Shown piece by piece: positions 16,262-45,500 of a DNA stretch of 64,000 nt. The notes under the pieces were generated by a model. The model worked only from the letters and a program-made list of their open reading frames with translations. It did not search any database and was not told the origin of the DNA. The position numbers were made by a program, and so were the translations under genes. The stretch's first letter is position 1; every line of letters starts with the position of its first letter. The DNA comes from Effrenium voratum (Eukaryota; Sar; Dinophyceae; Suessiales; Symbiodiniaceae): assembly GCA_963377175.1 (NCBI GenBank), contig CAUJNA010002757.1, positions 395,005 through 459,004 on the forward strand. The letters run 5' to 3'.

Positions 16262-16469
16262 GCGCAAACATAATCCAAAAAGGTTCGCCGGACCTGATGA
16301 TGTTGCTTCGGACCTGCCCCGAACGCAGTGGAATTTGCAGACACATGATCAGGGCAAAGTGAATCGCGCAAACATAATCCAAAAAGGTTCGCCGGACCTG
16401 ATGATGTTGCTTCGGACCTGCCCCGAACGCAGTGGAATTTGCAGACACATGATCAGGGCAAAGTGAATC
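16262..16469. repeat. Tandem duplication of a 104-bp unit
   Basis: Units 16262-16365 and 16366-16469 are almost identical (GCGCAAACATAATCCAAAAA ... GGGCAAAGTGAATC). Two copies only, without spacers. Confidence 0.9.
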
Positions 16470-29039: not shown

Positions 29040-29278
29040 CTGGAAGACGCTTGCGCTGTTGACCCTCTGCAAAAAGTCTAGTACTCTTTGTGGCTAAAAT
29101 TTGGAAAACCCTTGATGTCAGCAAAAAAGTTGAAGTCCGGAGATCCAACCCAATATTCAAGTTTGGCTGGTTCGGAGGTGGCAACCCCTTTGGCTTCAAC
29201 AATTGGCATGGAAAAGATCAACTAGGGGACCGTCATGAGCTCCCAAAAAGCGCCATCGCAGCGAAACTGTCTGAAAAC

Positions 29279-29421
29279 TATAGATTCAAGGGTTACCGGT
29301 TTGGGGCCCAAAAGGAAACAACAAACCGTCCAAGTGCGCTGCTCGCACATTTTCACGCTTGAACAGCCACACTGCGGATGCAACGGATGTAAAACCCCAA
29401 ACTGACCGATCAAATTCTTCA
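29279..29421 (-). repeat. 3' LTR of the Copia element
   Basis: Identical over 143 bp to the 5' LTR. Preceded on the plus-strand side by target duplication AAAAC at 29274-29278. The element's polypurine tract abuts its TG end. Confidence 0.92.
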
Positions 29422-29430
29422 CCCCCCTCT
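29422..29430 (-). promoter_or_regulatory. Polypurine tract
   Basis: Element strand reads AGAGGGGGG immediately before the 3' LTR TGAAG, the expected position and composition of the plus-strand primer. Confidence 0.75.
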
Positions 29431-29533
29431 GCGTGTTAAAGGGGCCTTTCACAAAGCAGCCAAACAGAAACACAACAGAGGGAGAAGGTCATGGGGAACC
29501 GTTGTATACATGCAAACCATGACAGTTGCGCTT

Positions 29534-32500
29534 TTAGCGCCACTGCCAAGTAGATTGGTAACCGCTGCTGTCATACCATCCTCCCCAACCGGACCAGTTC
29601 TGCCAGCTGCCTTGGCTCCAATGCTCACCCTCGCGGGCGGCGGGAGCGCTCTGATCGGCATAGCGAGCGGCATTGCGAGCGAGGTGCTTGGTGCTCTCGT
29701 TCTTTGAAAACTCAACTGAGTTTCGGGCATATCGCTCGTTCTGGCTGAATATCCAGTCCATTTCATGGCGGAGGTCCTCGAGGGAATTGCTTCGCAAATG
29801 GATGATGCCATTCCAACATCCAATGCTGCGAGGCTTGTCCTGCTCGGAGACAACATTCACAAAAGCCCGTGGACTGTATGGCATTCCCTGAAACATGATG
29901 ATCCAACGGGAACTGAGTGCATCCTGCAATTCGCTGGGCAGAAACTCCACCTCCGTCTTTATGTACGCGAGCCTTGCGATTCGCGACTCAGAAGTTGATC
30001 CAAGGCCAACTCCAAGAGTGCGCTGGGCTTGCGACTGCTTTGGAGCAGCCAAGACGAGGTTTGCACACAACTCCATGCGGAGTATATCCGCATCCCGACG
30101 GCCCACTTCAAGCATACGAAATCTGTATTGAAGGTCGAGTTCATAGCGATCAAGTAGAGAGTGGTAGCCGTTCTTCAGGGCGGACTTGTGCTTCTTCCGG
30201 GCCTCCTGAATGACAGCACTGTCCGGGGAGTTCAGGCCACGAAGGATGCTACTCCGATCCTCCTCGCGGAGGTCAAAAGTTCCCACGGATGCCAAAACCT
30301 GGGCTGTGACATGGGTGCTGAGGCCCATCTTCTTCAGCAAATTGGAACGCTGCACAAGGTAATTCTTTTGCTGCTCTTTCAACAGGCGAGGATTGAGGGG
30401 TGACAACTGCCCACATGATGTGCAGTGGACCTGCCCCTCGAACACACTGTTGTTGCAAACCGGGCACGCGGCGACATTCAGCTCAACGTTCTCCATTGGA
30501 TTGAAAGTCTTCTGTCTCTTCGCTTCCCCTTGCGGGGCGCGAGGAGACGCCACATTGGTGCGGGTTGTTGCAATGCGCTCCAGTGCTGTGGACCGATCAT
30601 CAACCACGGCTTGGTCGCGCTTCATCCCCTGGGGTTCATCCTCAGTCGCCTCAGCTGGTGCACCTGCATCCGATTGCTCGGAGCGAGTGTACCATACATC
30701 GCCATTTGTAGCGTCCAACACAGAAATAATCGTGTAGTTGGGCACCTTGTCGCGCGTGAGGACGCCATCGTTCTCCGTCTTGAAAAAGCAAAGCCCTGCA
30801 CGAATGGCCATCCTGAGGTCGATCTGTATTTCCAAGGGCTTGTTAGCGCGTACACCTGAGATGTAATTCTCGTTCGTGCTCGGAATGTCAGCGAAGAAAA
30901 CGTGAGGTCTGCCTGTCTCGTGCTGGTCACCTCCTCCTGGAAGCAGTCCGTTTCGCATAATGTTGGCGAAGTTCCGCTTATCGGTGCGATGATAGAGCAC
31001 CGTAGGAGGGTTGCTGCAGACGTTCCAGCCAGACCAGCGCCCGAGGTCCGTCCCCGGGTTCACGTACCACTCCTTCGCGATGCCGGAGTCGTCAATTTGG
31101 AGCCAGTCCTCATGGCCTTGGGAGGCCTTGATCTTGAAAATCCAATGAGAACAGGGGACGTCTCCGCACCGGCTTGCGTCCGGGCAACCAAGCGCAATGA
31201 ACCTCTGCTTTTTGTCGAGCTTGAAGATGTCCATGATGCTCTGAATATTCCATGGAATGGGATGTCGCAGCTCCTTGCGAAGCGCGAGTCCCAAATCTTC
31301 AAGGTCCATGTAGCCGTCCTCATCCATCACGTACCCACATCCTTCTGTCCCTCGACCACGGAGGATCTTCGAGATGCACGTCAGGGAGCTGTGGCACTCA
31401 TTGCTGATTCTCCTGACGGAAGGGTCGTAATCAAAAGAAGGCTGCTTGATGATCTCAAGTCGCTTGGGGCCCTCACCATAGTCAACATACTTCACGCCGT
31501 CATGGGTGCTATAAACCCAGCAATCGTAGTGGCCCCCAGTCACGTTCCTCCCGTAGGAGTCGAGTGGTACCGGCCTGCTCGTCGCCTCGTCCCTCTGTGC
31601 CACCGCAGCCGCCTTTGCACCGGCTTGCGCCGGGCGAACACTTTCGGAAACATCAGCACCGGAAGGCTCACCTGAAGTCGCAAATTCGGCTGGATCGACA
31701 GGGGCGAAATCGAGGGGCTGCCGGAACTCCACTTCTTCACGGGTGAAAGGGAGCCCGATCATCTCTGACAATGAAACGCCGCACTTCGTTAGCGTTTCCT
31801 TGCAGTACGCGAGAACCTCAACGTTGACTGTGCAATCCTCTTGGTGGCGCACCTCGAGCACATCGATCGGACGCATTGTGCAACCATGCGAACGTGTCAG
31901 CTCGGCTACGCTGCCCATTGCGGGGCGCAAGATGGAAAGCATGTACAACATATGATGGGTTCCGCGCATAAACTGGACGGTCTTCGTGATATTGTCGTCA
32001 CTGAAGCACATATGATACCTGTCCAGCAAATCGATGGTCTCGACGAAGGGTGTAGCATCAACATACACAAACATATTGTTGGGGTCGCCGATGATGTAAT
32101 CCCGGACTTCCGTCATGAAACGGTCCCAAATCATAGAGAAGCCGTAGAGGTAGCTCTTCGCGCCGGTCATGACTCCAAGGCATGCGCAGCCCTTGCGGGC
32201 CGCGAAATCCCTGGTCCAAGCCAGGTGCCGTCTGGTGTCAGCGAGAAGTTGCTCGGCGTCTCCGATGGGGGTGTCGTAAGGATAAGTACCAGTGGGCTCG
32301 AGGCCGTCCTTCCCAACGAGCTCGTTGCCATTCCAGTAAATCATCGGAATGATGGTGGCTGCTGGGTAGTCGGTACGCACCTCGTCGATGAGGGCGGCCA
32401 ACCGCTTGCACAGCTGTTGTAAGCCCTTGCCCCAAAGCATTTCAGACCTCCATGCACCGACACGCGCCGGGCGAGAGGCATCCAAACGCTCCGCAAAGTC

Positions 32501-32857
32501 GTACTTGCGAAGCTTGCGCTTCTTGCCCGAAACCATGGACAGTCCTGAATCGGCGACAGTCACATAGATGAGGAGGTCGCGGTCTGGTACACGTGGGGCC
32601 TGCAAAACTTTCAAGTACGGTTCGCTTATGGTTAACAGGGGTGTAAGCAATTGCAGGTAGTGCGGTTGGTCCTGCACCCATGTATGAATAAGCGACTGTG
32701 CAGAGGTCGTCTCGAGGAGGCCCTTGACCGTGGCGGCGAGGTTAGCGTCGTATTTGCCGTTCGTGCATACCGAAGTGGTAGCGACATTCTCCATCCATCT
32801 CCTCCATGCCAGATCGCAATCCCTCGCGGGATGCGCCATAGCCGTCGCGCTGCTCAT
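29534..32857 (-). CDS. ORF3 of the Copia element: SGNH-like + KptA/Tpt1-like RNA 2'-phosphotransferase + zinc ribbon
   Basis: 1107 codons from ATG 32857, which overlaps the pol stop as ATGA; the upstream in-frame codon at 32878 is TTG, so 32857 is the first ATG. Residues about 90-300 look like an SGNH hydrolase (VADSGLS, YWNGNE, DRYH as a DxxH motif). Residues about 485-727 match both lobes of Tpt1/KptA: KILRG, DEDGYMDLEDL, DKKQRF, IKASQGHE, then LYHRTDKRNFANIM...GLLPGG, HVFFA and FKTENDGVLTRD. Tpt1 enzymes use NAD+ to remove an RNA 2'-phosphate, and some family members ADP-ribosylate 5'-phosphorylated ends. A CxxC-x10-CxxC zinc ribbon (798-815) and a tail rich in Trp, Gly, Ser and Gln follow, suggesting nucleic-acid binding. 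One Arg of the Tpt1 IRANQGH motif is Lys here. Expression by termination-reinitiation is inferred. Confidence 0.85.
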   Translation of the reverse strand: MSSATAMAHPARDCDLAWRRWMENVATTSVCTNGKYDANLAATVKGLLETTSAQSLIHTWVQDQPHYLQLLTPLLTISEPYLKVLQAPRVPDRDLLIYVTVADSGLSMVSGKKRKLRKYDFAERLDASRPARVGAWRSEMLWGKGLQQLCKRLAALIDEVRTDYPAATIIPMIYWNGNELVGKDGLEPTGTYPYDTPIGDAEQLLADTRRHLAWTRDFAARKGCACLGVMTGAKSYLYGFSMIWDRFMTEVRDYIIGDPNNMFVYVDATPFVETIDLLDRYHMCFSDDNITKTVQFMRGTHHMLYMLSILRPAMGSVAELTRSHGCTMRPIDVLEVRHQEDCTVNVEVLAYCKETLTKCGVSLSEMIGLPFTREEVEFRQPLDFAPVDPAEFATSGEPSGADVSESVRPAQAGAKAAAVAQRDEATSRPVPLDSYGRNVTGGHYDCWVYSTHDGVKYVDYGEGPKRLEIIKQPSFDYDPSVRRISNECHSSLTCISKILRGRGTEGCGYVMDEDGYMDLEDLGLALRKELRHPIPWNIQSIMDIFKLDKKQRFIALGCPDASRCGDVPCSHWIFKIKASQGHEDWLQIDDSGIAKEWYVNPGTDLGRWSGWNVCSNPPTVLYHRTDKRNFANIMRNGLLPGGGDQHETGRPHVFFADIPSTNENYISGVRANKPLEIQIDLRMAIRAGLCFFKTENDGVLTRDKVPNYTIISVLDATNGDVWYTRSEQSDAGAPAEATEDEPQGMKRDQAVVDDRSTALERIATTRTNVASPRAPQGEAKRQKTFNPMENVELNVAACPVCNNSVFEGQVHCTSCGQLSPLNPRLLKEQQKNYLVQRSNLLKKMGLSTHVTAQVLASVGTFDLREEDRSSILRGLNSPDSAVIQEARKKHKSALKNGYHSLLDRYELDLQYRFRMLEVGRRDADILRMELCANLVLAAPKQSQAQRTLGVGLGSTSESRIARLAYIKTEVEFLPSELQDALSSRWIIMFQGMPYSPRAFVNVVSEQDKPRSIGCWNGIIHLRSNSLEDLRHEMDWIFSQNERYARNSVEFSKNESTKHLARNAARYADQSAPAAREGEHWSQGSWQNWSGWGGWYDSSGYQSTWQWR
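30677..31405 (-). other. KptA/Tpt1-type RNA 2'-phosphotransferase domain within ORF3
   Basis: Both lobes are recognisable: the N-terminal winged-helix lobe (ILRG, DGYMDLEDL, DKKQRF) and the C-terminal NAD+-binding lobe (YHRTDKRNF, GLLPGG, HVFFAD, LEIQIDLRMA, DGVLTRD). Spacing between the IKASQGH and YHRT motifs is longer than usual. Family membership is well supported by motif order; activity is not known. Confidence 0.8.
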
Positions 32858-35800
32858 TGCGAAGAAGATGCAGCACAATCACTCGAAAGCAACGGCTGCA
32901 TGGTGGCATGTTCAGAAAATGCATTGTGAACGGCATCGGTGTAAACATACGTGTATCCCTCGGCTTCCTTCAAATGCGTACCACGGCTTTCATCATGCTC
33001 GTGAGAACCATCACACTTGAAGTACTCAACCACGGAAATAGTGGGCATATTACTGGCAACGATCCACTGCTTTTTCATAGGTTTTCCATTTCTCCCTTTA
33101 ATGCCGATTTTGCAACCATGGAATTCGTACTTGTTCATCTTGTACTTAGTCAAGAAACTCCATAGTTCGGGCCATTTCCAATAACGACACGCCTTGGGAA
33201 GTTCGAAGGCAACTCTAACGTCATCAGAATAGACATCATTGAGAATGCGTTTGAACCCTCTCAGCAGTGATCGGAATTGCTTGATGTGACCCTCAATCTT
33301 GGCAGCACCTTTGGGAGTTTGCTGGTTGACATAACCCCACGGGCATCCTCCAGTGCAAGGCAATGAAACGTAGAACATTATTGCACCCTTAGGATTCCTG
33401 CTCCTAAATTCGGCAATTTCATGGACTAACCACTGCCTGCATGTATCAGAGCACCCGTCTTCGGTTTCAGTTACCCGAATGACACGACATTCCTTTGAAG
33501 AGTCTCTTGATTCGCCCAACCGTGAGGTCGTCGAACAACAGAACTCAATAAGGAGGCGCTTGGGCTGAGCGTTGCATAGCGCGGCGATCTGCCCCCCCTG
33601 ATCACTAACTTCTCCGGCCTTGGCGCGCGGGGAAAGCAGCAAACTGGTGGCACAGGCTCGCGCCTGGCGATTTGGGGAGATACCGATCAGCTCGAGTGCG
33701 TGGTGCCACACTGGGGTGCTGTCAAACGCCTTGGTCAAGATGTCTGCAGCTTGGAGGGTAGTGTCAACATTGATTAACTCGAACTGCCTATTCACGAATT
33801 GCTCCTGGAGCCATCTGAAGCTAATGCGTTGGGTCCTATCCGTGTGCCTTAGCTTCTGTGAGTGTCCCTGCTGCAGGATAGTGATCGTGGCCTGATTGTC
33901 TTCCATCAGCTTATCTTTCCACTTATCACTGAGATGCACAGTTAGGGCATTGATGTTTGCTACACTTGTGCCCGCATCAACATTTCCGTACCGAATTTCA
34001 TCCAACTCGGGGTCGATGCGAGCAACAATGCCATCGGGCACATCAAGGGAGGCCTTTCCTGCCTTTTGAGCATACCCATGTGCTTCTTTCCCAAACAGGC
34101 TGAGCTGGCAGAAAAGCGACAGCGTCGGCAATCCCTCTGCTCTGAGCGCCTGATTCGCAGCGATGACCTCGGCTTCAGTCGAGCTTGTTGCGGTCGCTGT
34201 CTGCTTCCTACTGAAGGCATTCAGTGGGTAGTACGTGTTTGGCCCTACCAGGATCATGGTGCAACCAGTTGTACTATGCGAGTCGTATTCGCCTGCCCAA
34301 TCCGCGTCAGCGAACAGCCACAGCCTACAATCAGAGAACTTATCCCCGATAAAACCTCGCATCTTTAGGTCCTTCGAACAGTGTATGTAAGACACAAGCC
34401 GATGTAGAGCGCTGTCGCACTCAGTGGACCATTTACTCACGCGCGAGGCAAGGCTCTGCGTGGCTCTTAGCAGGTCATACCTAGCCATGCGGGCTGCGAA
34501 TAGAATCTTCATTAGTACTTTTGCAGCGATCGTTTGAAGCCTGCCCTTTGGCTCCTCTTCATTTACGACAGGTCTCGCGACCTTCGAACCAATGAATGGA
34601 GTGCTAACCTTACTCAACGAAGAAACGTTCACCTTGGCAAGTTCGCAATATGCATCAACGCATGACTTGAGGAAATCAGACATGTCGTACTCAACAATGT
34701 TGACTTCTTTAGTCATACAACCAACAGGTTTATCGCATATCGTTTCGGGTCCTTTGAACTTCGAAACCTTGTCTTCTTTCTTTGCCGCGGTTTTGTCTCT
34801 CATTGATCCAGGCTTAGAGGGCAATGCACATTGCAGAGCTGCTTCCTGATTCTCACCGTAGGAGAACACAGTACGTCCGGTCCACCACGCGGTGTCCGCA
34901 GAAATGCGATCACTTGCATGACGCGACCACTCATCGCAAATTGGACTTGATTTGGATTGATCTTTGATTGTCACACGCTGGGGGTCGAGGCTGCAAGCGA
35001 ATGCACTCATTTGCTCCTTAGGACGGAAAAGGCATTTTCTAGGCTGCAAGTGATAGCGTGTCCACGTTTTCGTGTTCTCATCATGCTCCCAGTAGTCCTC
35101 AGTCCTTCTTTGAGAGCAAACACCCGCGTGTTGCGCAGAACCCTCAAACACGTGATTAAAAGGGTGTTCCTCTTTAGACAATCTGACATTGTTCTTTTCG
35201 ATGTGATGACACCCAAAGTATCTACCGAATAGCTCGGGCGCGTCGATCTCGACAACCTTCCCGATCAGTTCCCATCCCTTATCGAGGCTACCGGCGGGTC
35301 CTGCAAGCTTGAAGTCATCAACATATACGACGAGCAGCAGGTCGAGTTCCGGATGATGGAAAATGGATGTCCATATTTCGGGCAACACTCTTACAAAGCC
35401 TTGCTTGCTTAGGGCATCTTCGAGGTGCTTTTCCCAAAGCCCCCCTGAATCGGGATGTCCGTACAAGGCTAGCACAAGTGGAACAATGGGGTCAATGTAT
35501 TGTTTGCTCCAATGGCTAGGCCATCTGTTCTTGGGCAATCTAAGCCATGTGGGAACGCCTTTGAACAGGGCTTGAATGTAGGCTTGCTTCGCATCGGCTT
35601 GCGCCTTGCGGTAGCCGGGCTGCGACCCGAAAGCGTCGAGGATTTTGGCTGCCTCCATTGACGCTGGGCTGGACCCTAGCTCCGCAAATAATGCTGCAAC
35701 AGAGTTTTCATCGTAAACATTGTTCCCTTGGAAAACGGTCCTTCCTTTGAATTTCTTGTTGGGATCATCATCAGGAAGCTCGCTACCCTTCTCGTAACAA

Positions 35801-38334
35801 GCCTCGAAAATCCTTCCAATGTGAACCTTTTCCCCTTTGTTCTGGGCTTCTCTGATGACGCGCCTACACTCATTTACTCTGAACTCATCCCAAGTGCCTT
35901 TCTTTCGAAGGTTTTCAAGGGCAGCTTGGGCCTTTGGCGTATTGGCTACTTCGGCTTTTGGTACAAGCCTGGCAACGACTGCACTGAACAGTTCAAGAGC
36001 AACATCAAATTCAACCTTCTTGATTCGCTCTTTGACCAACTCACGCAATTGCGGGCGATGCGGCTCCTTCGATGGCTTGTCACGTTCCGGAAGAACGGAC
36101 ATCGCAGGCGCGTGCCGGATCACAGGCAATGTCGGCTCGCCCTCGCGGGCGGCGCTGGTCGGCTTTGCACTCGATGCGGCTTCGGGGTGCTCGGATCTGG
36201 CCTCCGAAGAGACTGCTGTCTCAAGCACTGCCTTCTTGGCATCTGCACGGAGCTGATCTTCGTACTGCTGGGTTAGGGCCTTTCGGTCCTGGCTGCCGAG
36301 CATGACCCACATGTCAGACGGGATATCGGGAGGCCTTTTGGATCCGGCCTTCCTACGGACGAGCCGAACCCCATCCCACACATAGCCATCAGGTACTGGT
36401 GACCCATCAGGCATTATGCTCGGGTCGAATGCGCCGCCTTTGTCGGGCACGACAGGCTTGGTCTTCGCTTCGGATTTCTCCGATGCGGCGGGTTCCTCGA
36501 TGTGGGCTTGCCCACGTTCCAACGGCACAGGATCATCTCGTGTTCTAGCACTGGCAACAGGTGGATGAGATGCAGGGTCTTTCAACAACCTCATCGGGAA
36601 GATGAACTCATCGGTCGGAAGCTCAATGCGCTTAGTTCGCTGTACCGTGAGGGACGCATGTTCGATATGGTAATCGAGCCCTTCTAGTTTTGCAACGAGG
36701 AACTCACCCTTCCATGCGAACCCAGGCTGAATATGGTACCCGAGAAACACGCCTTCATTCGATGTTGGCGAAGTCTTGCCTGCCTGATTGTCAGCTCGTG
36801 CAGGGTTGTTCCAGAACAGTATCTTTGCTCCGAAAGGTATCTCAGCTTCATCAAAGGTCTTGTTAAACCTGAGGTACCATGGCGAATCGTTTCCATTCAA
36901 CTGTGGCAGGATGTTGGTCGCAACTGCATTATGCTGGATGGCAAATGGCCACATCGACAGTGGGAACCCTGACTGGACAAGGTTCGCACGTGCTCCCTCC
37001 AACAGATGTCTGATTTCCCTTTCCACGAAAGATTTGGAAGAATCAACATATTCAATGGAGGTCTGATGACGGTACCCCAACTGCTCTATTGCGGCTTTCA
37101 ATTCCCGGGAGTTATCAGTGTAGAGAACCTCAACCTCATCCCTACCGGAAATGAAATGCTGGATCCCTGCAACGGATTGCTCCGTGCTTTTGCTGGTCGA
37201 CGGGTAAACGTACCTGAACTGCGTATGCACGTCCTTGATCACAAGAGCACACCATTCACCTTTTATGCCTTGCTCGATGTTGGCCTTGAGAATCACATGA
37301 TCAGCAATGATGTGATCTCCAAACGCTTTCGTCTCGAGCCTTCCCTGCCCGCCTTTCGATCTTGCATATGGGGCAAGCATCTTGGCACGTTGGCAAGTGC
37401 GGCAAAAGGGATTCTTCGGATAGTGTGCAAACAAGTGCTCTTTGGTACCTGCTTCGGCAACCAGATCTTGCTCTTTGCGGGATCTCACAAACCGCTCAAC
37501 TTCGTCGTCGGGATCATCACCTTCGTCGATGCCTTCGTCATGAGCTGGCGCAGGCGCTGGCTTTGATGCTGCTACTGCACTCAACGATGGCTCAGCTTCA
37601 CAACTAGAGTCCATGTATGGCACATGACCGTCAACCTTGAGCTGGATCAGAGCACCGTCAGGGCGGACCATGATTGGTGCCTTCCCGGATTCCCAATGAA
37701 AGGAATATCCTTGATCCAGACACTTCACACCCAGCGACAGCACTGCGGGAGAACTCTCGAGGATGTAAGGCTGAGCAGGCTCGCACAATGCATCGACATT
37801 GATGTCGGCGATCTCGGAAGCAGTGATGTTTCCGTTTGCAGTCACAAGGCGAATAGGCTGCGGGGCCTGTTTTCGGATTGCCTTGGACGCATTCCTCAGT
37901 GCAGCCTTGCTGATGAGGTCCTGCTCACTACCGGAATCAATGAGCCACACATCCTTTCCCTTTGGGGCAGGGGTGGCTGCCCTTGGCGCTTCGACATCCT
38001 TGCGAACATCGTGGGGCGGCATGGCAACTCTCAGGCACTCATCACACGATAGGCTTGAGATGGAATCAGATTCCACATCGCACATGAAACCGCAAGCGGG
38101 CTGGGCTCCATTCTCCATGGCTTTGACTACGGCATTCAACTGATTCGCGGCCTTGCGCGCTGCCTTGTTAGTCCCTTTGGTCGGCCTGGGGCAGTCCTTG
38201 GCACTTGGAAACATCCTATTGTACTGACGTTCCTCATACTCAAGCTTGAAACCATCGCCTTCGGCGGGGATTTCATGAACATGAGCATTGGTGTCGAATG
38301 ACACTCCACTTGGGTTGATCGGCTTTGCGAACAT
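32854..38334 (-). CDS. pol: Pol polyprotein: protease, integrase, reverse transcriptase, RNase H, methyltransferase-like domain
   Basis: 1826 codons from ATG 38334. Visible motifs: aspartic protease IDSGS (132-136); integrase zinc motif H300, H304, C311, C314; integrase core D345, D407, E438; reverse transcriptase D914 and YVDD (1004-1007); Copia-type RNase H FADADWAG (1341-1348), SSTEAEV and EDNQAT (D1479); closing ADILTKAF. The order protease-integrase-RT defines Ty1/Copia. After RNase H a further 250 residues carry IEFCC, SLPCTGGCPW (PC at 1659-1660) and FELPKACRYW, a layout like cytosine-5 methyltransferases and common in dinoflagellate Copia proteins. The in-frame region upstream of the ATG is closed by stops within about 40 nt, so pol is reached either by reinitiation at this ATG or by a further -1 shift from the gag extension. 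The stop TGA overlaps the next ATG. Confidence 0.92.
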   Translation of the reverse strand: MFAKPINPSGVSFDTNAHVHEIPAEGDGFKLEYEERQYNRMFPSAKDCPRPTKGTNKAARKAANQLNAVVKAMENGAQPACGFMCDVESDSISSLSCDECLRVAMPPHDVRKDVEAPRAATPAPKGKDVWLIDSGSEQDLISKAALRNASKAIRKQAPQPIRLVTANGNITASEIADINVDALCEPAQPYILESSPAVLSLGVKCLDQGYSFHWESGKAPIMVRPDGALIQLKVDGHVPYMDSSCEAEPSLSAVAASKPAPAPAHDEGIDEGDDPDDEVERFVRSRKEQDLVAEAGTKEHLFAHYPKNPFCRTCQRAKMLAPYARSKGGQGRLETKAFGDHIIADHVILKANIEQGIKGEWCALVIKDVHTQFRYVYPSTSKSTEQSVAGIQHFISGRDEVEVLYTDNSRELKAAIEQLGYRHQTSIEYVDSSKSFVEREIRHLLEGARANLVQSGFPLSMWPFAIQHNAVATNILPQLNGNDSPWYLRFNKTFDEAEIPFGAKILFWNNPARADNQAGKTSPTSNEGVFLGYHIQPGFAWKGEFLVAKLEGLDYHIEHASLTVQRTKRIELPTDEFIFPMRLLKDPASHPPVASARTRDDPVPLERGQAHIEEPAASEKSEAKTKPVVPDKGGAFDPSIMPDGSPVPDGYVWDGVRLVRRKAGSKRPPDIPSDMWVMLGSQDRKALTQQYEDQLRADAKKAVLETAVSSEARSEHPEAASSAKPTSAAREGEPTLPVIRHAPAMSVLPERDKPSKEPHRPQLRELVKERIKKVEFDVALELFSAVVARLVPKAEVANTPKAQAALENLRKKGTWDEFRVNECRRVIREAQNKGEKVHIGRIFEACYEKGSELPDDDPNKKFKGRTVFQGNNVYDENSVAALFAELGSSPASMEAAKILDAFGSQPGYRKAQADAKQAYIQALFKGVPTWLRLPKNRWPSHWSKQYIDPIVPLVLALYGHPDSGGLWEKHLEDALSKQGFVRVLPEIWTSIFHHPELDLLLVVYVDDFKLAGPAGSLDKGWELIGKVVEIDAPELFGRYFGCHHIEKNNVRLSKEEHPFNHVFEGSAQHAGVCSQRRTEDYWEHDENTKTWTRYHLQPRKCLFRPKEQMSAFACSLDPQRVTIKDQSKSSPICDEWSRHASDRISADTAWWTGRTVFSYGENQEAALQCALPSKPGSMRDKTAAKKEDKVSKFKGPETICDKPVGCMTKEVNIVEYDMSDFLKSCVDAYCELAKVNVSSLSKVSTPFIGSKVARPVVNEEEPKGRLQTIAAKVLMKILFAARMARYDLLRATQSLASRVSKWSTECDSALHRLVSYIHCSKDLKMRGFIGDKFSDCRLWLFADADWAGEYDSHSTTGCTMILVGPNTYYPLNAFSRKQTATATSSTEAEVIAANQALRAEGLPTLSLFCQLSLFGKEAHGYAQKAGKASLDVPDGIVARIDPELDEIRYGNVDAGTSVANINALTVHLSDKWKDKLMEDNQATITILQQGHSQKLRHTDRTQRISFRWLQEQFVNRQFELINVDTTLQAADILTKAFDSTPVWHHALELIGISPNRQARACATSLLLSPRAKAGEVSDQGGQIAALCNAQPKRLLIEFCCSTTSRLGESRDSSKECRVIRVTETEDGCSDTCRQWLVHEIAEFRSRNPKGAIMFYVSLPCTGGCPWGYVNQQTPKGAAKIEGHIKQFRSLLRGFKRILNDVYSDDVRVAFELPKACRYWKWPELWSFLTKYKMNKYEFHGCKIGIKGRNGKPMKKQWIVASNMPTISVVEYFKCDGSHEHDESRGTHLKEAEGYTYVYTDAVHNAFSEHATMQPLLSSDCAASSSQ
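32920..33567 (-). other. Methyltransferase-like domain at the Pol C-terminus
   Basis: Pol residues about 1590-1805. Seen: an IEFCC motif where C5-methyltransferases have motif I, an acidic strand end (VTETED), SLPCTGG at the motif IV position with the catalytic-type Pro-Cys pair, and FELPKAC at the motif VI position, where Glu is kept but the usual Asn is not. Retrotransposon-borne C5-methyltransferases have been reported in dinoflagellates; whether this copy belongs to that group or is a degenerate relative is inference. Confidence 0.55.
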
Positions 38335-38633
38335 GGCGTACCTGGTGCAGTCGCGGCTTTGGCCTTGGGCTTAGGCTTAGGTGAATTTGCACGCTTCTTA
38401 GCCGCAGGATTTGCATTGGCCTCGCTGCTCGATGCCGCGGCGGCAGATTTGCCGCCCGTGGAGGCATGGCTAAACTTGCATTTGTCACCTCTCGTGCACT
38501 TCCCTTGGGCGAAGAAAGAACACGGTGCTTTCTCTCCTTTACCGCCTTTGGGGGAACTTGGCCTGCCGCGGGTCGCGGAGCGTCCTCGCGGCTCCTTGCG
38601 GTGCGCGTAAGGGCAGTTTGCCCCCTCGTGCAC
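38136..38633 (-). CDS. Gag C-terminal extension in the -1 frame (CCCH zinc fingers)
   Basis: Continues the Gag finger as HEGANCPYAH and adds a second complete CCCH finger, CSFFAQGKCTRGDKCKFSH (C-x7-C-x5-C-x3-H), then a Lys/Ala/Pro-rich tail. It has no ATG start of its own at the finger, so it makes sense only as an extension of the main gag frame by a -1 shift at 38621-38625 or after repair of an indel. It overlaps the start of pol, which lies in the third frame. Confidence 0.75.
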   Translation of the reverse strand: MHEGANCPYAHRKEPRGRSATRGRPSSPKGGKGEKAPCSFFAQGKCTRGDKCKFSHASTGGKSAAAASSSEANANPAAKKRANSPKPKPKAKAATAPGTPCSQSRSTQVECHSTPMLMFMKSPPKAMVSSLSMRNVSTIGCFQVPRTAPGRPKGLTRQRARPRIS

Positions 38634-40609
38634 GAGCCCTTCTGGAAGTCAAAACAGTACTTCTCCTCGGCGTCCTTCGGCTTAGGTGCGCTCTTTTTCT
38701 TGGGGTCCCTCTTTTCAGGGGCGGCAGCACCAGCCTTGGGCGTCGGAGCTTTACTGGCATTGACCTTGGACACGCGCTCTCGGTTCTCGCGGAGCCTATC
38801 CCTCTCGATTAGATCCCTCATGCAACGCATTAGGAAATCATACGATTTATTGGGATCATCATCACGGCAACGATCATATGTGTCGATGTCGTACCGCAAC
38901 AGATGGCAGCTTCTCACTTGGCGAAGCAAGATATCTTTCAACACCTTTTCTTCCGGCGGCTTTTTCATGCCGGCGATCACGGAATCCCAAGCATTCAGGA
39001 AACGCTTGAGATCGATGATTCCTTCGCCGTGTCGCGAGACACGCAACAGGTCCTCCAAGGAGTAGAGGTTTCCGGCTTCTTCACTGGTCTTGAAATATTG
39101 GTCAAACATAAACAAGACCTGCCTTCCTCTCATGGCCTTTCCCTCCTTGGCACATTCTTCCTTTGCTGTTAGGATTCGCTGAGCCAGATCGCCTTTCGCT
39201 GAACGCGTGAGCGCTGCGAGAATCTTCGTGTCTAGGGTCACGAATTTTCCCGGTTCGCCGAGCTCCTCCAACAGCTTCTTCTTGTCCTCGCGATCAGACC
39301 AGACTTCCATGATCCAAGGCCAAGCCTCGTCTGGACGGTCAGATGCAGCGCGGACATCCTCACGAACCGATGTTTTCCATTCACGGTACGTTTCAGGAGT
39401 TGGCATCTCCTTGAATCGCAACGTCTCGCTTTCGCGGGTTCTGGGCTTTTCATCGTTCGTTTGGCCTTTTACTAACTTCATCAACATCTTGGCGAATGCT
39501 TCATTGCCGAGGTTGGGCCCGAGGCCGTCACCATCGTCTTCGTCACCATCGCCGTCGCCATCATCATCAGGTGGCGGACCGCCAGGAGGCTTGCCACCCT
39601 GCTTGCGGTCAGTTGACATTGGCCCCTGAGAGAATTGCAGGGGTGGAACCGGTGCACTTGTTTTCACCGGGGATCGGCTGCTACCTGATGGCTTTTCAGC
39701 TGGTCCTTGCGGATCGCGAGCATCTGCGGGCAGTGCTTCGCATTCGGCAGTTGGAATCACGCTAGGGGTATATTCATCCCCGTAACCGTCATAGGTAACA
39801 AGCGACCTCAACTTTTCCTTTGCATATTGAAACGGATGGGTGAGCGGGTCCAACATTGACCTTTGGGACCGAGCTGACTTCATGTCGTCGGTCATCAACT
39901 CTGGTGAATCCTCTCGGGTATCACCTACCCCTTTGGGCTTCGATCCATCCTCGCGGAGGTCGTGTTGCTTCTGATACTTCTTCAGCTCATCAAGCTCGTC
40001 CTGCAGAAGCCCGTTTTGGTGTGCCATCATGTCAACCGTTCTGGCGTGTGTAGCCTCGACACGGGCTGTGTCATCGGCATGCTTAGCAGCTTGCTCATGG
40101 AGGAGCTGCTGGGCTTCAGCCAGGGTGGATTCGATGGCTTGCCTAAACTCAGTTGTTTTGCGTCCCATTTCCGCTTCATGCAATGCTTGGGCATTTTCCT
40201 CACACACTTGGCTTATCCTAGCTTCAGCGAAGTTCACTTCTTGCATGAACTCATCGCTCACTCGCTGTTCGTATTCACGAATCCTATGCGACTGGGCTTG
40301 CACACATTCAGCGTAGTGTGCATGCAGCTGATTCTGTGCGGCACGGAGCTCCTCACGGTTTTCCGCTTGCAAATGCGTTACAGCTGCTTGATGCAGGGCT
40401 TCGGCTTCAGACCTAATGGCTGCATCATTCCCAAAAGCAAAGATTGCGGTATTGTACAGTTGAAGGGAATTCATCAGGGTGCGGTTGTATTGCGCATTAG
40501 CGCTTGATGCGAACATTCGCACACCGCCGCCGGTGGCGTTGCCGGAGCTAGCTCCGGCAGCATCCACAGGCATGCTGGATCCATCAACTGGCACAAGGGA
40601 ACCGTCCAT
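38273..40609 (-). CDS. gag: Gag-like protein of the Copia element (first frame)
   Basis: A 778-codon frame from ATG at 40609. Residues about 60-225 are Gln/Glu/Ala-rich and heptad-like (coiled coil). A Pro/Asp-rich linker follows (about 300-370, with an acidic DDDGDGDGDEDDGDG run), then a helical region (about 390-640, from LRFKEMPTPETYREWK) resembling a Copia capsid core. Near residue 660 a CCCH finger begins (CFDFQKGSC). At the G5 run 38621-38625 the frame leaves the finger, whose remaining Cys and His lie in the -1 frame (38136-38633). Beyond that point this frame gives Arg/Pro-rich sequence of doubtful meaning. The protein would form the particle and bind the RNA. The break is either programmed -1 slippage or a one-base loss. 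Confidence 0.85.
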   Translation of the reverse strand: MDGSLVPVDGSSMPVDAAGASSGNATGGGVRMFASSANAQYNRTLMNSLQLYNTAIFAFGNDAAIRSEAEALHQAAVTHLQAENREELRAAQNQLHAHYAECVQAQSHRIREYEQRVSDEFMQEVNFAEARISQVCEENAQALHEAEMGRKTTEFRQAIESTLAEAQQLLHEQAAKHADDTARVEATHARTVDMMAHQNGLLQDELDELKKYQKQHDLREDGSKPKGVGDTREDSPELMTDDMKSARSQRSMLDPLTHPFQYAKEKLRSLVTYDGYGDEYTPSVIPTAECEALPADARDPQGPAEKPSGSSRSPVKTSAPVPPLQFSQGPMSTDRKQGGKPPGGPPPDDDGDGDGDEDDGDGLGPNLGNEAFAKMLMKLVKGQTNDEKPRTRESETLRFKEMPTPETYREWKTSVREDVRAASDRPDEAWPWIMEVWSDREDKKKLLEELGEPGKFVTLDTKILAALTRSAKGDLAQRILTAKEECAKEGKAMRGRQVLFMFDQYFKTSEEAGNLYSLEDLLRVSRHGEGIIDLKRFLNAWDSVIAGMKKPPEEKVLKDILLRQVRSCHLLRYDIDTYDRCRDDDPNKSYDFLMRCMRDLIERDRLRENRERVSKVNASKAPTPKAGAAAPEKRDPKKKSAPKPKDAEEKYCFDFQKGSCTRGQTALTRTARSREDAPRPAAGQVPPKAVKERKHRVLSSPKGSAREVTNASLAMPPRAANLPPRHRAARPMQILRLRSVQIHLSLSPRPKPRLHQVRHVRKADQPKWSVIRHQCSCS

Positions 40610-40641
40610 TGCTTAGAGCTAGGGGCCTACGGCTGATAACC
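40610..40641 (-). promoter_or_regulatory. Primer-binding region and gag leader
   Basis: Directly inside the 5' LTR the element reads GGTTATCAGCCG, resembling the initiator-tRNA-complementary site of many Copia elements (TGGTATCAGAGC) but not identical. The whole leader from LTR to the gag ATG is only 32 nt. Confidence 0.5.
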
Positions 40642-40784
40642 TATAGATTCAAGGGTTACCGGTTTGGGGCCCAAAAGGAAACAACAAACCGTCCAAGTGC
40701 GCTGCTCGCACATTTTCACGCTTGAACAGCCACACTGCGGATGCAACGGATGTAAAACCCCAAACTGACCGATCAAATTCTTCA
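40642..40784 (-). repeat. 5' LTR of the Copia element
   Basis: 143 bp, identical to 29279-29421. In element orientation it begins TGAAGAATTTG and ends GAATCTATA, so it has the canonical TG start but not a CA end. It is followed outside by the target duplication AAAAC (40785-40789). It is short for an LTR and shows no TATA box upstream of a plausible start. Confidence 0.92.
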
Positions 40785-40789
40785 AAAAC

Positions 40790-42507: not shown

Positions 42508-45500
42508 CTTAGAGTCTGAAACGCTTGGATAGGGCAAAATTTGCGAGCCCTTTTTGTTGGCTGAACCTTGGATTGTTTGGAACATGAACAAACAAATGAA
42601 TGGCGGACGGCGCGAAACAGGGATGTTCCTGGTTGGATTGTATCGGGAAACAGTGGGAAACCACCCCTTACAACCCGAATGGTGGGTGGGGGGGGTGGGG
42701 TGGGGTGGGGTGGGGTGGGGTGGGGTGGGGTGGGGTGGGGTGGGGTGGGGTGGGGTGGGGTGGGGTGGGGGGGTGGGGTGGGGTGGGGTGGGGTGGGGTG
42801 GGGTGGGGTGGGGTGGGGTGGGGTGGGGTGGGGTGGGGTGGGGTGGGGTGGGGGGGGGGGGGTGGGGTGGGGTGGGGTGGGGTGGGGTGGGGTGGGGTGG
42901 GGTGGGGTGGGGTGGGGTGGGGTGGGGTGGATGGATAGATGGATACATGGATGGTGGATGGATGGAGCGCAAGGCGCACATATAAGATAGCTGCGGGTCC
43001 ACAAAGACCACTGCAAGCGTGAGGTGCCAGTGCCCTCCACTGTTCCTATCCATTCCACCCACGCTATACCCAGGATGGGTGTCCAAAAACTAGCTTAAGC
43101 TGCGAGGACCAGCCACGGCAGAGCTTTGTCAGCAGGCTGAAAATCATCAATATGATGGCAGTTTGGGCCTTGGAGCCTGATGTTAAGTTGTTCAGGGCAG
43201 CCAAAAACAAGTGAACCTTCTCAAAGCCTACCAATGATCCCCCAACGAAAGTGGATAGTCTTATTGGATGAACCAGGGAAAGATAGGGACCCCAAACGAC
43301 CCCCTCAAAAATGGCTTGTCTCAACGCAGGAAACCTCTGATGTTGATTCAGGGGTCCCTTCAAAAGGAAATTCATCTTCCAAATGTAGATTGTTGTTTGG
43401 GGAAAAACCTGACATTGGTTCAACTGCGTCGAGGCGCGCTGGGAAAAACCCTGAAAACCCCAATGAACCCCCAAACCTGAAACCCCCGAAGAAGCGTCCA
43501 AAAGGCAATCTGCTGTTTCTGACACCCCCGAGATACTCTTCGCTTCCCAAGAGGGCACGGGACAATTGTCACCCTCTACATTGGGGTGAACTTGGTTGTA
43601 CCAGGCCCTCTCCAAACCAACAGCACTCTGGCAGACCAACCAAGAATACAATACACCAGCCGCTAAAACGGAGATGCGAGTTTACAGAGAGTTCTACAAC
43701 CTAAACTAGAAGCCAAAACTCATACGTACAAACATGTTGTTCTGGGCAAACTCCCACATTCCACCATTTGGAAACAATGAACTCCCAGGTAAGGAACCCT
43801 CATCACCGTGAAGTCGAAGTCTTAGGGGTAGTGGAAACTACCACAAATAGCTAGACGCACGGCTCACATCGGTGCTCGGCGCGCCCGGATGTGCCAACAC
43901 CGTTCGGCAAAGGGACCTTTGGAACCGGATGCCTGGGAGCCATGGGCTGAACCCGTTCACGGTTTTTCGCCTGGGCACTGATCAATGGGCCCAGCTGTGC
44001 AGCAAGCGCGTCCTTGTTGGAGCGGAAGCCATGCCTGCGTTTCCGGGCTGAGAGAGAAACACCTCACGCCAGAAATGTTTGGCTTCCGATTGGCTTCCCT
44101 GGAAACCAAGCCCAAAGAAGGGTACACTCAACAAAAAGCCACCCCACAAAAACGGAAAAAAAGGCAACGCGCAAAACACACACAAACACATACGTTGTAG
44201 TGGCATCTGTTTGTGCGGAGGCTACCCATGTTTGGTGGTTCTCAAGGGAAACCAAAGGAAAACCGAAGCCAGCGTTGAGGGCCTCCGAAAAAGAAAAAGA
44301 AAAAAACACCCATTTCATGTTTTTTCAGAAGCCAAATGGGTCCGGCAATGTGTGTATTTATGTGCCAGACTGCAGGAAACAAGAGCGGACGGATGGTTAG
44401 CAGTTCGCTTCCTGGTCTTTGAGTTTAGCCGCAAGCAAAGCAGAAGCTAGGACTGCGAACATAGGACACCGGCAGTTGCCGGGGGACTTTCACGAAGTGC
44501 TTTTTGCTCTCTGACACAGATTTGTGGTGAGTCTGCCAATGTGACTCCGGACGCAACCGCCCACAGAAATGGAAGCACGAGTGGCACTGGGCAGCATGGG
44601 CTGTGAGAATCCGATGACTCGAATTTAGGATCAAGGATTGTCTTTTGTAGAGCCCCGCAAATGGGGTTCTTCATCAACTCCATAGCCACAGCCAAAATGA
44701 CATCTTCTGGGTTGTGTGGGGAAAATGTTCGATTTTATTAGAGAACTGGTAACCTTGATCAAACCTCATATACGCAAGGACCTTCAGAAGTCATGTGACA
44801 GCATCGGATTCTGGCTGATGTATGACCCTAATACTTCACCAAGACGCAGGGTTCAGGTGTCATACTCACAGGCTGAACGATGAACCCTTCCACTACCTCA
44901 ACTGGTTGGCTTGTTCTCAAAACAGCGTGCGCAAGATTGCAGCAAACGCGCACGCCAAAACAAACATTGATTTTGATGATGCCAAGCACTACAACGTCAC
45001 GGGTAGCAAACAACTTCCATGGCAAACACATACCATTTAACATCTAGCTTGATGACAGTCACCAAGGCCTCTCTCTCAACACGTTGCACATGTTCATTTC
45101 TTGGATGGTACAATCTGCCCAGTTCATAACTAAGTCTTTCAACATCAGGCACGTGTCGGGAAAACCGTTTGGTTCGCTGCCAGGAAGCAAACACACCGCT
45201 TTCGGCCGTGACAGCTGCGACCTCGACGGCGCAAAGAACAACCAAGAAAATGGAACGCGGGCCGGCTGAACCTGGGGTGCCCTGAAGTTACATAAAAAGC
45301 TCCGTGGGTTTGTCTCAAAATAGAAATCAGAACTCCCAACATGGTTGGGTTCCTTTTTGTTTCTCCAAGGTGAACAGGATAATTACCCAAAAGAACGAAC
45401 ACACACACACACATTGGGCCGGAGTGTTGGCTTTGACAAAATAATTTCTTTGCTCTTTTGAAGAAGACACCAACATCAAGCTGGCAACTTTCGCTGGCGG

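Follow-up and report, generated by a model that had tools for sequence, protein, structure and literature searches.

A Copia-organised retrotransposon of the dinoflagellate Effrenium voratum with KptA-like, SGNH hydrolase and methyltransferase-like domains after RNase H

This study examined a 64,000-nucleotide stretch of the genome of the dinoflagellate Effrenium voratum (contig CAUJNA010002757.1, positions 395,005 to 459,004; hereafter the window), in which a long terminal repeat (LTR) retrotransposon occupies positions 29279-40784 of the minus strand, as an earlier note on this DNA had correctly placed it. The element is probably a recent copy of a Ty1/Copia-organised LTR retrotransposon belonging to an old lineage, the Gag-Pol of which has been extended by an accessory module that works in replication. 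The putative module comprises a methyltransferase-like domain, an SGNH hydrolase domain, a domain with a KptA-like ADP-ribosyltransferase fold and a zinc/C-terminal part. In many relatives it is fused to Pol, whereas in the window family the part following the methyltransferase-like domain is a separate open reading frame (ORF), ORF3. The Ty1/Copia organisation is evident from the LTRs, the target-site duplication and the polypurine tract (PPT), and from a Pol in which the integrase precedes the reverse transcriptase (RT) and RNase H in motif order, the RT being of the RVT_2 type. The RVT_2 score of this Pol is under the Pfam cut-off (19.3 vs 31.6 bits); RVT_2 was matched by 12 of 17 relatives at an E value of 0.1 or better, the best being 4.8e-9.

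The module was found in many relatives of the element. The search with the ORF3 protein, which scored only the 7993 candidates with the most shared words, yielded among these two proteins, 96% and 72% identical and representing 126 and 1 sequences, respectively; no relative of ORF3 was confirmed in prokaryote genomes and viral contigs. The search with Pol yielded 94 proteins, 22 of which contain PF01885 in the same polypeptide, a count that is independent of the module profiles, these being built from members of the same protein set. BLAST and profile maps placed RNase H, the methyltransferase-like domain, SGNH, the KptA-like domain and the C-terminal part in this order within one polyprotein, in relatives as diverged as about 20-41% identity to ORF3. 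This order is nearly constant, the exceptions being P0071 and P0088, in which the methyltransferase-like domain lies ahead of the RT. Six profiles were searched against 96 proteins and the two window proteins, and P0055, P0063 and P0076 matched none. In 37 relatives, RNase H is followed by at least 1100 residues; this number is inflated by near-identical rows although P0001-P0003 had been removed as duplicates of the window. Among them, the methyltransferase-like domain was matched in 27 (including eight P0019-type proteins without its Pro-Cys motif), SGNH in 34, the KptA-like domain in 31 and the C-terminal part in 26. Once rows were collapsed at 90% RNase H identity, the corresponding numbers were 16, 21, 18 and 15 of 24. 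RNase H distances correlated with those of each domain both before (r 0.78-0.87, n 25-45) and after collapsing (r 0.76-0.84, n 17-35), and none of 2000 permutations reached values as high in either case.

Of the 84 rows in the RNase H tree, 68 form a clade (support 99/95) that carries the module in its main subclades. P0086 lies outside this clade on a long branch and also has the module. We take the module to have been present in the common ancestor of the 68-row clade, and the replacement of the KptA histidine by glycine to be derived, the placement of P0086 being unsure. The earlier note had proposed checking whether the ORF3 domains co-occur with this Pol clade, and they do so in near-constant order in many diverged relatives. 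Since Pol and these domains form one polyprotein in many relatives, a separate ORF3 is, judging from these sequences, a variation of the window family. A short KptA-profile match (residues 2719-2776) was also observed at the end of a deeper-branching Pol, P0090, and is possibly an older acquisition. In addition, the polyproteins of two of 17 Pol relatives, P0071 and P0085, contain a dUTPase domain (PF00692); this Copia group has therefore acquired further enzymes.

With regard to the host genome (assembly of 1.156 Gb, 3699 contigs), 41 ORF3 copies were scored, drawn from 748 first-look candidates and picked by their ORF3 match. All 41 are open, window copy included, with 1102-1114 codons and 94-100% identity. 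Twenty copies were fetched at up to 10 kb, along with the 5' ends of 20 and the ORF3 and 3' LTR of eight diverged copies. Where both flanks are readable, 17 of 18 copies have 5-bp target duplications, the exception being the pair L039/L011, and the LTR pairs are identical in 16 of 18. The window family is recently mobile. The ratio of nonsynonymous to synonymous substitution (dN/dS) of ORF3 is 0.087 (29 sequences, 406 pairs), with 0.100 for SGNH, 0.048 for KptA and 0.081 for the zinc/C-terminal part. Without correction, the 11 copies in which gag-pol is open gave a ratio of 0.084 for ORF3, compared with 0.066 for the gag part and pol. These ratios are biased towards low values, as the ranking of copies by similarity of their ORF3 proteins selects for intact copies with low dN; still, the synonymous distance to the window copy reaches 0.39, in L030, where dN is 0.03. 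From these comparisons, ORF3 appears to be under purifying selection, which supports the earlier suggestion that it is maintained.

The frames of gag and pol are less well preserved. In the window copy, each of gag, the CCCH-finger stretch and pol occupies a frame of its own, and the claim of intact frames failed here: gag-pol is broken at the gag zinc-finger region. Barring indel errors of the assembly at this place, the window copy is therefore unlikely to be autonomous, and mobility rests on the family; the earlier suggestion of recent mobility holds for the latter and not for this copy. In 11 of 20 other copies, the fetched gag part and pol form one open frame of at least 2040 codons, and in the other nine this frame is broken. 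Such broken frames are what could be expected if ORF3 were a captured passenger fragment without function, as the earlier note would have concluded had ORF3 existed only in this copy or evolved without purifying selection. Other copies do exist, the frame is open in every scored copy (all chosen by ORF3 match) with low dN/dS, and both domain order and key residues are conserved in distant relatives. The passenger reading is disfavoured on these grounds and is highly improbable. Two further observations concern the structure of the copies. L027 and L028 are 98.9 and 98.7% identical to the window copy in Pol, but only 96.6 and 97.1% in ORF3, which suggests recombination between subfamilies. In L025, upstream pol is absent, and no part of the element can be recognised in the 10 kb except the Pol tail (residue 1600 onwards), ORF3 and the 3' LTR.

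The pol frame ends at an ATGA stop-start overlap with ORF3 in the window copy and in all 20 copies with upstream sequence; the eight diverged copies were fetched from ORF3 onwards and do not enter this count. All 29 ORF3 sequences carry the motif GCAATGAG at the ORF3 start. Given this arrangement, ORF3 is most likely translated by termination-reinitiation at the overlap, and trans-splicing or frameshifting may be alternative modes. A classical -1 frameshift was considered and reinitiation preferred, as no X-XXY-YYZ heptamer was seen by eye in the overlap.

Residues 502-709 of ORF3 match the Pfam family PTS_2-RNA (Tpt1/KptA) with an E value of 2.8e-17 (63.8 bits vs a cut-off of 26), and the predicted fold matches TRPT1. 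When three of 34 short matches are omitted, H630 and R677 are present in 31 of 31 KptA-like domains and T632 in 29; H630 and T632 flank an Arg in 25 of 31, at the middle of the NAD-binding HGT motif. The predicted fold of the Pol tail matches C5-cytosine methyltransferases. This Pol contains the Pro-Cys of motif IV, which sits after the expected strands of the fold, and the Glu of motif VI; in the long matches (14 of 61 short matches omitted) the proline is conserved in 46 of 47, and C1660 and E1711 in 47 of 47. The SGNH domain exhibits the catalytic Ser, Gly, Asn and His, and a predicted fold matching TesA-type SGNH hydrolases. Its residues are nearly invariant (S111 45/45, N185 44/45, H289 45/45, with four of 49 short matches omitted), in agreement with the earlier proposal of an SGNH-like domain in ORF3. 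The zinc ribbon that had also been proposed is under the Pfam cut-off (11 vs 27 bits), and its double CxxC is conserved in the family consensus.

Several results weigh against a module of working enzymes. In the KptA-like domain, the Arg-His-Arg-Arg tetrad is replaced by R507-G508-K584-R657 in the window ORF3. Of 31 sequences, only P0086 has the tetrad His, the other 30 having Gly; at the second tetrad Arg, 24 have R, and at the last position 15 have K, 13 R, 2 N and 1 M. The Tpt1 structure paper, in the part covered, deems the whole tetrad essential, and canonical KptA chemistry may be lost in the element. In the methyltransferase-like domain, the match found by Foldseek has a TM of only about 0.35. 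C5-cytosine methyltransferases have an FxGxG motif I and a QxRxR motif VIII; here IEFCC replaces the former, and no QxRxR is present in the alignment. Pfam DNA_methylase gave no match in 17 relatives or in this Pol, and a PDB sequence search of the Pol tail returned three weak, unrelated rows (best E value 0.21), none of which is credible, so that the methyltransferase link is one of predicted structure. Among the 14 proteins with short matches, eight that are closely related to one another (P0019, P0020, P0021, P0023, P0024, P0041, P0060 and P0094) lack Pro-Cys within the matched stretch, and the domain was undetected in one 9-row subclade and in P0022, P0075 and P0083. The domain thus seems to decay in places. 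Finally, the CpG observed/expected ratio is 0.91 in the element vs 0.63-0.71 in the flanks, with no CpG depletion, and 117 of 329 transitions lie in CpG context vs a context share of about 0.30, a slight excess only; strong self-methylation is not favoured by these data. A sequence link from the Pol tail to known methyltransferases was also sought and rejected: none of 23 matches has a Pfam domain, and all are apparently of the same family.

These results could be explained if the KptA-like and methyltransferase-like domains were catalytically dead and served as nucleic-acid-binding modules. The loss of the tetrad His, the variable Arg positions, the loss of Pro-Cys in the P0019 group and the missing DNA_methylase score are all consistent with such a scaffold. 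Nevertheless, H630, R677, C1660 and E1711 are invariant in the long matches, and we regard two dead domains as rather unlikely. In P0019-type proteins, SGNH and KptA-like domains are intact downstream of the short methyltransferase-like match, and by this pattern the group is a lineage losing only the methyltransferase-like domain. Because nearly all sequences (30 of 31) have Gly for the tetrad His, the element domain is, by its residues, not a canonical 2'-phosphotransferase, while the His and, in 29 of 31, the Thr of the NAD pocket are kept. The earlier KptA/Tpt1 reading therefore stands for family and fold and not for the canonical tetrad, and the activity of an RNA 2'-phosphotransferase is not to be assumed. 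Similarly, the earlier claim of a methyltransferase-like Pol tail is upheld by the predicted fold and the Pro-Cys and Glu residues, and not by Pfam or motifs I and VIII.

If the domains are active, the module most likely acts while the element is reverse transcribed in the particle. There, the KptA-like domain would use NAD+ on phosphates at the ends of element RNA, primer or complementary DNA (cDNA), and the methyltransferase-like domain would modify the new cDNA or RNA. The SGNH domain would hydrolyse an acyl or acetyl ester, or bind lipid. An ester/lipid role has been proposed for a non-LTR retroelement esterase in the covered part of PMC3905857, and by analogy we infer for the SGNH domain a role as proposed for other retroelements. 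One specific form of this proposal is that the Copia lineage has a KptA-derived NAD+ enzyme that lost the junction-reading His and acts on ends, together with a minimal cytosine methyltransferase that marks the cDNA like the methylated host genome; we put this forward only tentatively.

Two other roles can be envisaged for the KptA-like domain. In the first, it would add ADP-ribose to the 5'-phosphates of element RNA or cDNA, thereby protecting or marking the ends. The fold matches include entries with titles (the only part considered) naming KptA complexes with 5'-p-ADPR-DNA, and H630, R677 and T632 are retained while the junction contact is lost. However, the Arg set is variable, and we consider end capping unlikely. 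In the second, the 5' half of an anticodon-cut tRNA would serve as primer. Extension may be blocked by a 2',3'-cyclic or 2'-phosphate left at the cut; by removing the terminal 2'-phosphate, the KptA-like domain would restore a usable 3'-OH. The sequence directly after the 5' LTR is GGTTATCAGCC rather than TGG. It is the same in 18 of the 19 copies whose 5' LTR could be read and is compatible with an internal tRNA stretch. Priming by a short tRNA segment is a mark of Hemivirus in the portion of the source covered. In the CthTpt1 structure, as far as the covered part describes it, the junction 3'-phosphate is the sole contact of the lost tetrad His, and a terminal end would lack it. However, the tetrad varies beyond the His, and one pattern of the tRNA-Ile(GAU) type gave no matches in the genome, on which basis the tRNA-Ile(GAU) gene was rejected as primer. 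The candidate primer-binding site may resemble tRNA-Ile(GAU) or the initiator tRNA. Such primer healing is doubtful.

The features of the element are listed in Table 1. The earlier description of identical LTRs (143 nt, zero differences) and AAAAC on both sides was accurate, as was that of gag, a Copia-order pol and a third ORF of 1107 codons, according to the ORF list and motif order. ORF3 has 1114 aa if counted from a TTG. The PPT, AGAGGGGGG, is unchanged in 19 of 20 sampled copies, these being the 19 with a readable 3' LTR. CCCH-type zinc fingers were also seen in the Gag region of several relatives. No Rfam matches, tRNAs or spliced-leader sequences were found in the window. Elsewhere in it, a perfect tandem duplication of 104 nt (two copies) lies at 16262-16469, and a GGGTG simple repeat of about 250 nt lies near the element, at 42684-42930.

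Table 1. Coordinates of the retrotransposon features in the window
Feature	Positions	Strand	Basis or remark
Target-site duplication AAAAC, left copy	29274-29278	none	read directly
3' LTR, 143 nt	29279-29421	minus	no difference from 5' LTR
Polypurine tract AGAGGGGGG	29422-29430	minus	read directly; adjoins 3' LTR
ORF3, 1107 aa from first ATG, stop codon included	29534-32857	minus	ORF list
ORF3 C-terminal region, double-CxxC zinc ribbon first (~30404-30469)	29657-30478	minus	family consensus; Pfam below cut-off
KptA/Tpt1-like ADP-ribosyltransferase-fold domain of ORF3 (R507, G508, K584, H630, T632, R657, R677)	30677-31393	minus	Pfam, fold
SGNH hydrolase domain of ORF3 (D110-S111, G150, N185, D286, H289)	31940-32599	minus	profile, predicted fold
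ATGA overlap: ORF3 ATG 32855-32857, pol stop TGA 32854-32856	32854-32857	minus	
pol ORF, 1826 aa	32854-38334	minus	ORF list
Methyltransferase-like domain, Pol end (P1659-C1660, E1711)	32908-33570	minus	profile, predicted fold, conserved residues
RNase H, profile-matched part	34111-34722	minus	family profile
Reverse transcriptase, YVDD within 35311-35328	35158-35736	minus	RVT_2 weak, E 9.4e-4; family profile
Integrase: HxxxH/CxxC at 37390-37437, then D, D, E	36565-37437	minus	motifs by eye; bounds approximate
Aspartic protease region, DSG within 37912-37947	37690-37977	minus	motifs by eye; bounds approximate
Open stretch in second frame, CCCH zinc finger(s), 165 aa	38136-38633	minus	Pfam
gag ORF, 778 aa	38273-40609	minus	frame departs from CCCH-finger region
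Candidate primer-binding site GGTTATCAGCCGT	40629-40641	minus	directly inside 5' LTR; first letters not TGG
5' LTR, 143 nt	40642-40784	minus	no difference from 3' LTR
Target-site duplication AAAAC, right copy	40785-40789	none	read directly

The window element is similar to Ty1/Copia elements (Pseudoviridae) in its LTRs, PPT, Gag and protease-integrase-RT-RNase H order, and differs from them by the accessory enzyme module after RNase H. The usual Copia Gag finger is CCHC, whereas that of the window element is CCCH. The covered part of the ICTV profile (International Committee on Taxonomy of Viruses) of Pseudoviridae lists hosts among fungi, plants and animals, and for Sirevirus a third ORF that putatively encodes an envelope; the window ORF3 matches enzyme folds instead. 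A cytosine-methyltransferase domain is carried by the dinoflagellate retrotransposons SymbioDIRS-Dnmt3 and SymbioLINE-Dnmt (de Mendoza 2018, PMC5890265, in the sections covered). These are DIRS and LINE elements, whereas the window element is a Copia with a domain too diverged for Pfam. According to the same sections, Copia is the most abundant retroelement class in Symbiodinium and lacks any DNA methyltransferase (DNMT) domain. Bdelloid LTR retrotransposons with a GDSL ORF3 (PMC5408684) likewise have an SGNH hydrolase as ORF3; in the part covered, their extra ORFs showed no significant departure from neutrality, in contrast to the dN/dS of 0.087 of the window ORF3. Non-LTR esterases such as ZfL2-1 (PMC3905857, covered part) are another case of an SGNH hydrolase within a retroelement, and neither KptA nor a methyltransferase is named in the covered parts of these two articles. 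The KptA-like domain of the element differs from Tpt1/KptA/TRPT1 by the tetrad change from His to Gly, by the change of one Arg to Lys in the window family and by being encoded in a retroelement. A few picorna-like and nidovirus polyproteins (PMC9503650, covered part) also embed a KptA domain in the polyprotein of a replicating element; these are RNA viruses, and the words 'retrotransposon' and 'retroelement' occur 0 times in the main text as covered. Retroelements with SGNH domains are already known, as are dinoflagellate DIRS and LINE elements with methyltransferases. Searches of open-access literature found no description of a KptA domain in a retrotransposon or of a methyltransferase-like domain in Copia.

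On the usual view, Gag and Pol suffice for an LTR retrotransposon. A conserved extension by three predicted enzymes suggests that certain elements require additional chemistry or benefit from it. With an active KptA-like domain, retrotransposition would include an NAD+-dependent step. We know of no earlier NAD+-dependent step in LTR retrotransposition and of no earlier methyltransferase in Copia, and if the proposal is true both would be firsts. Should the Pol tail prove to be a methyltransferase, what has been published on Symbiodinium Copia, namely that it lacks DNMT domains (PMC5890265, covered part), may need revising, and the question of whether elements methylate their own cDNA would become testable in Copia.

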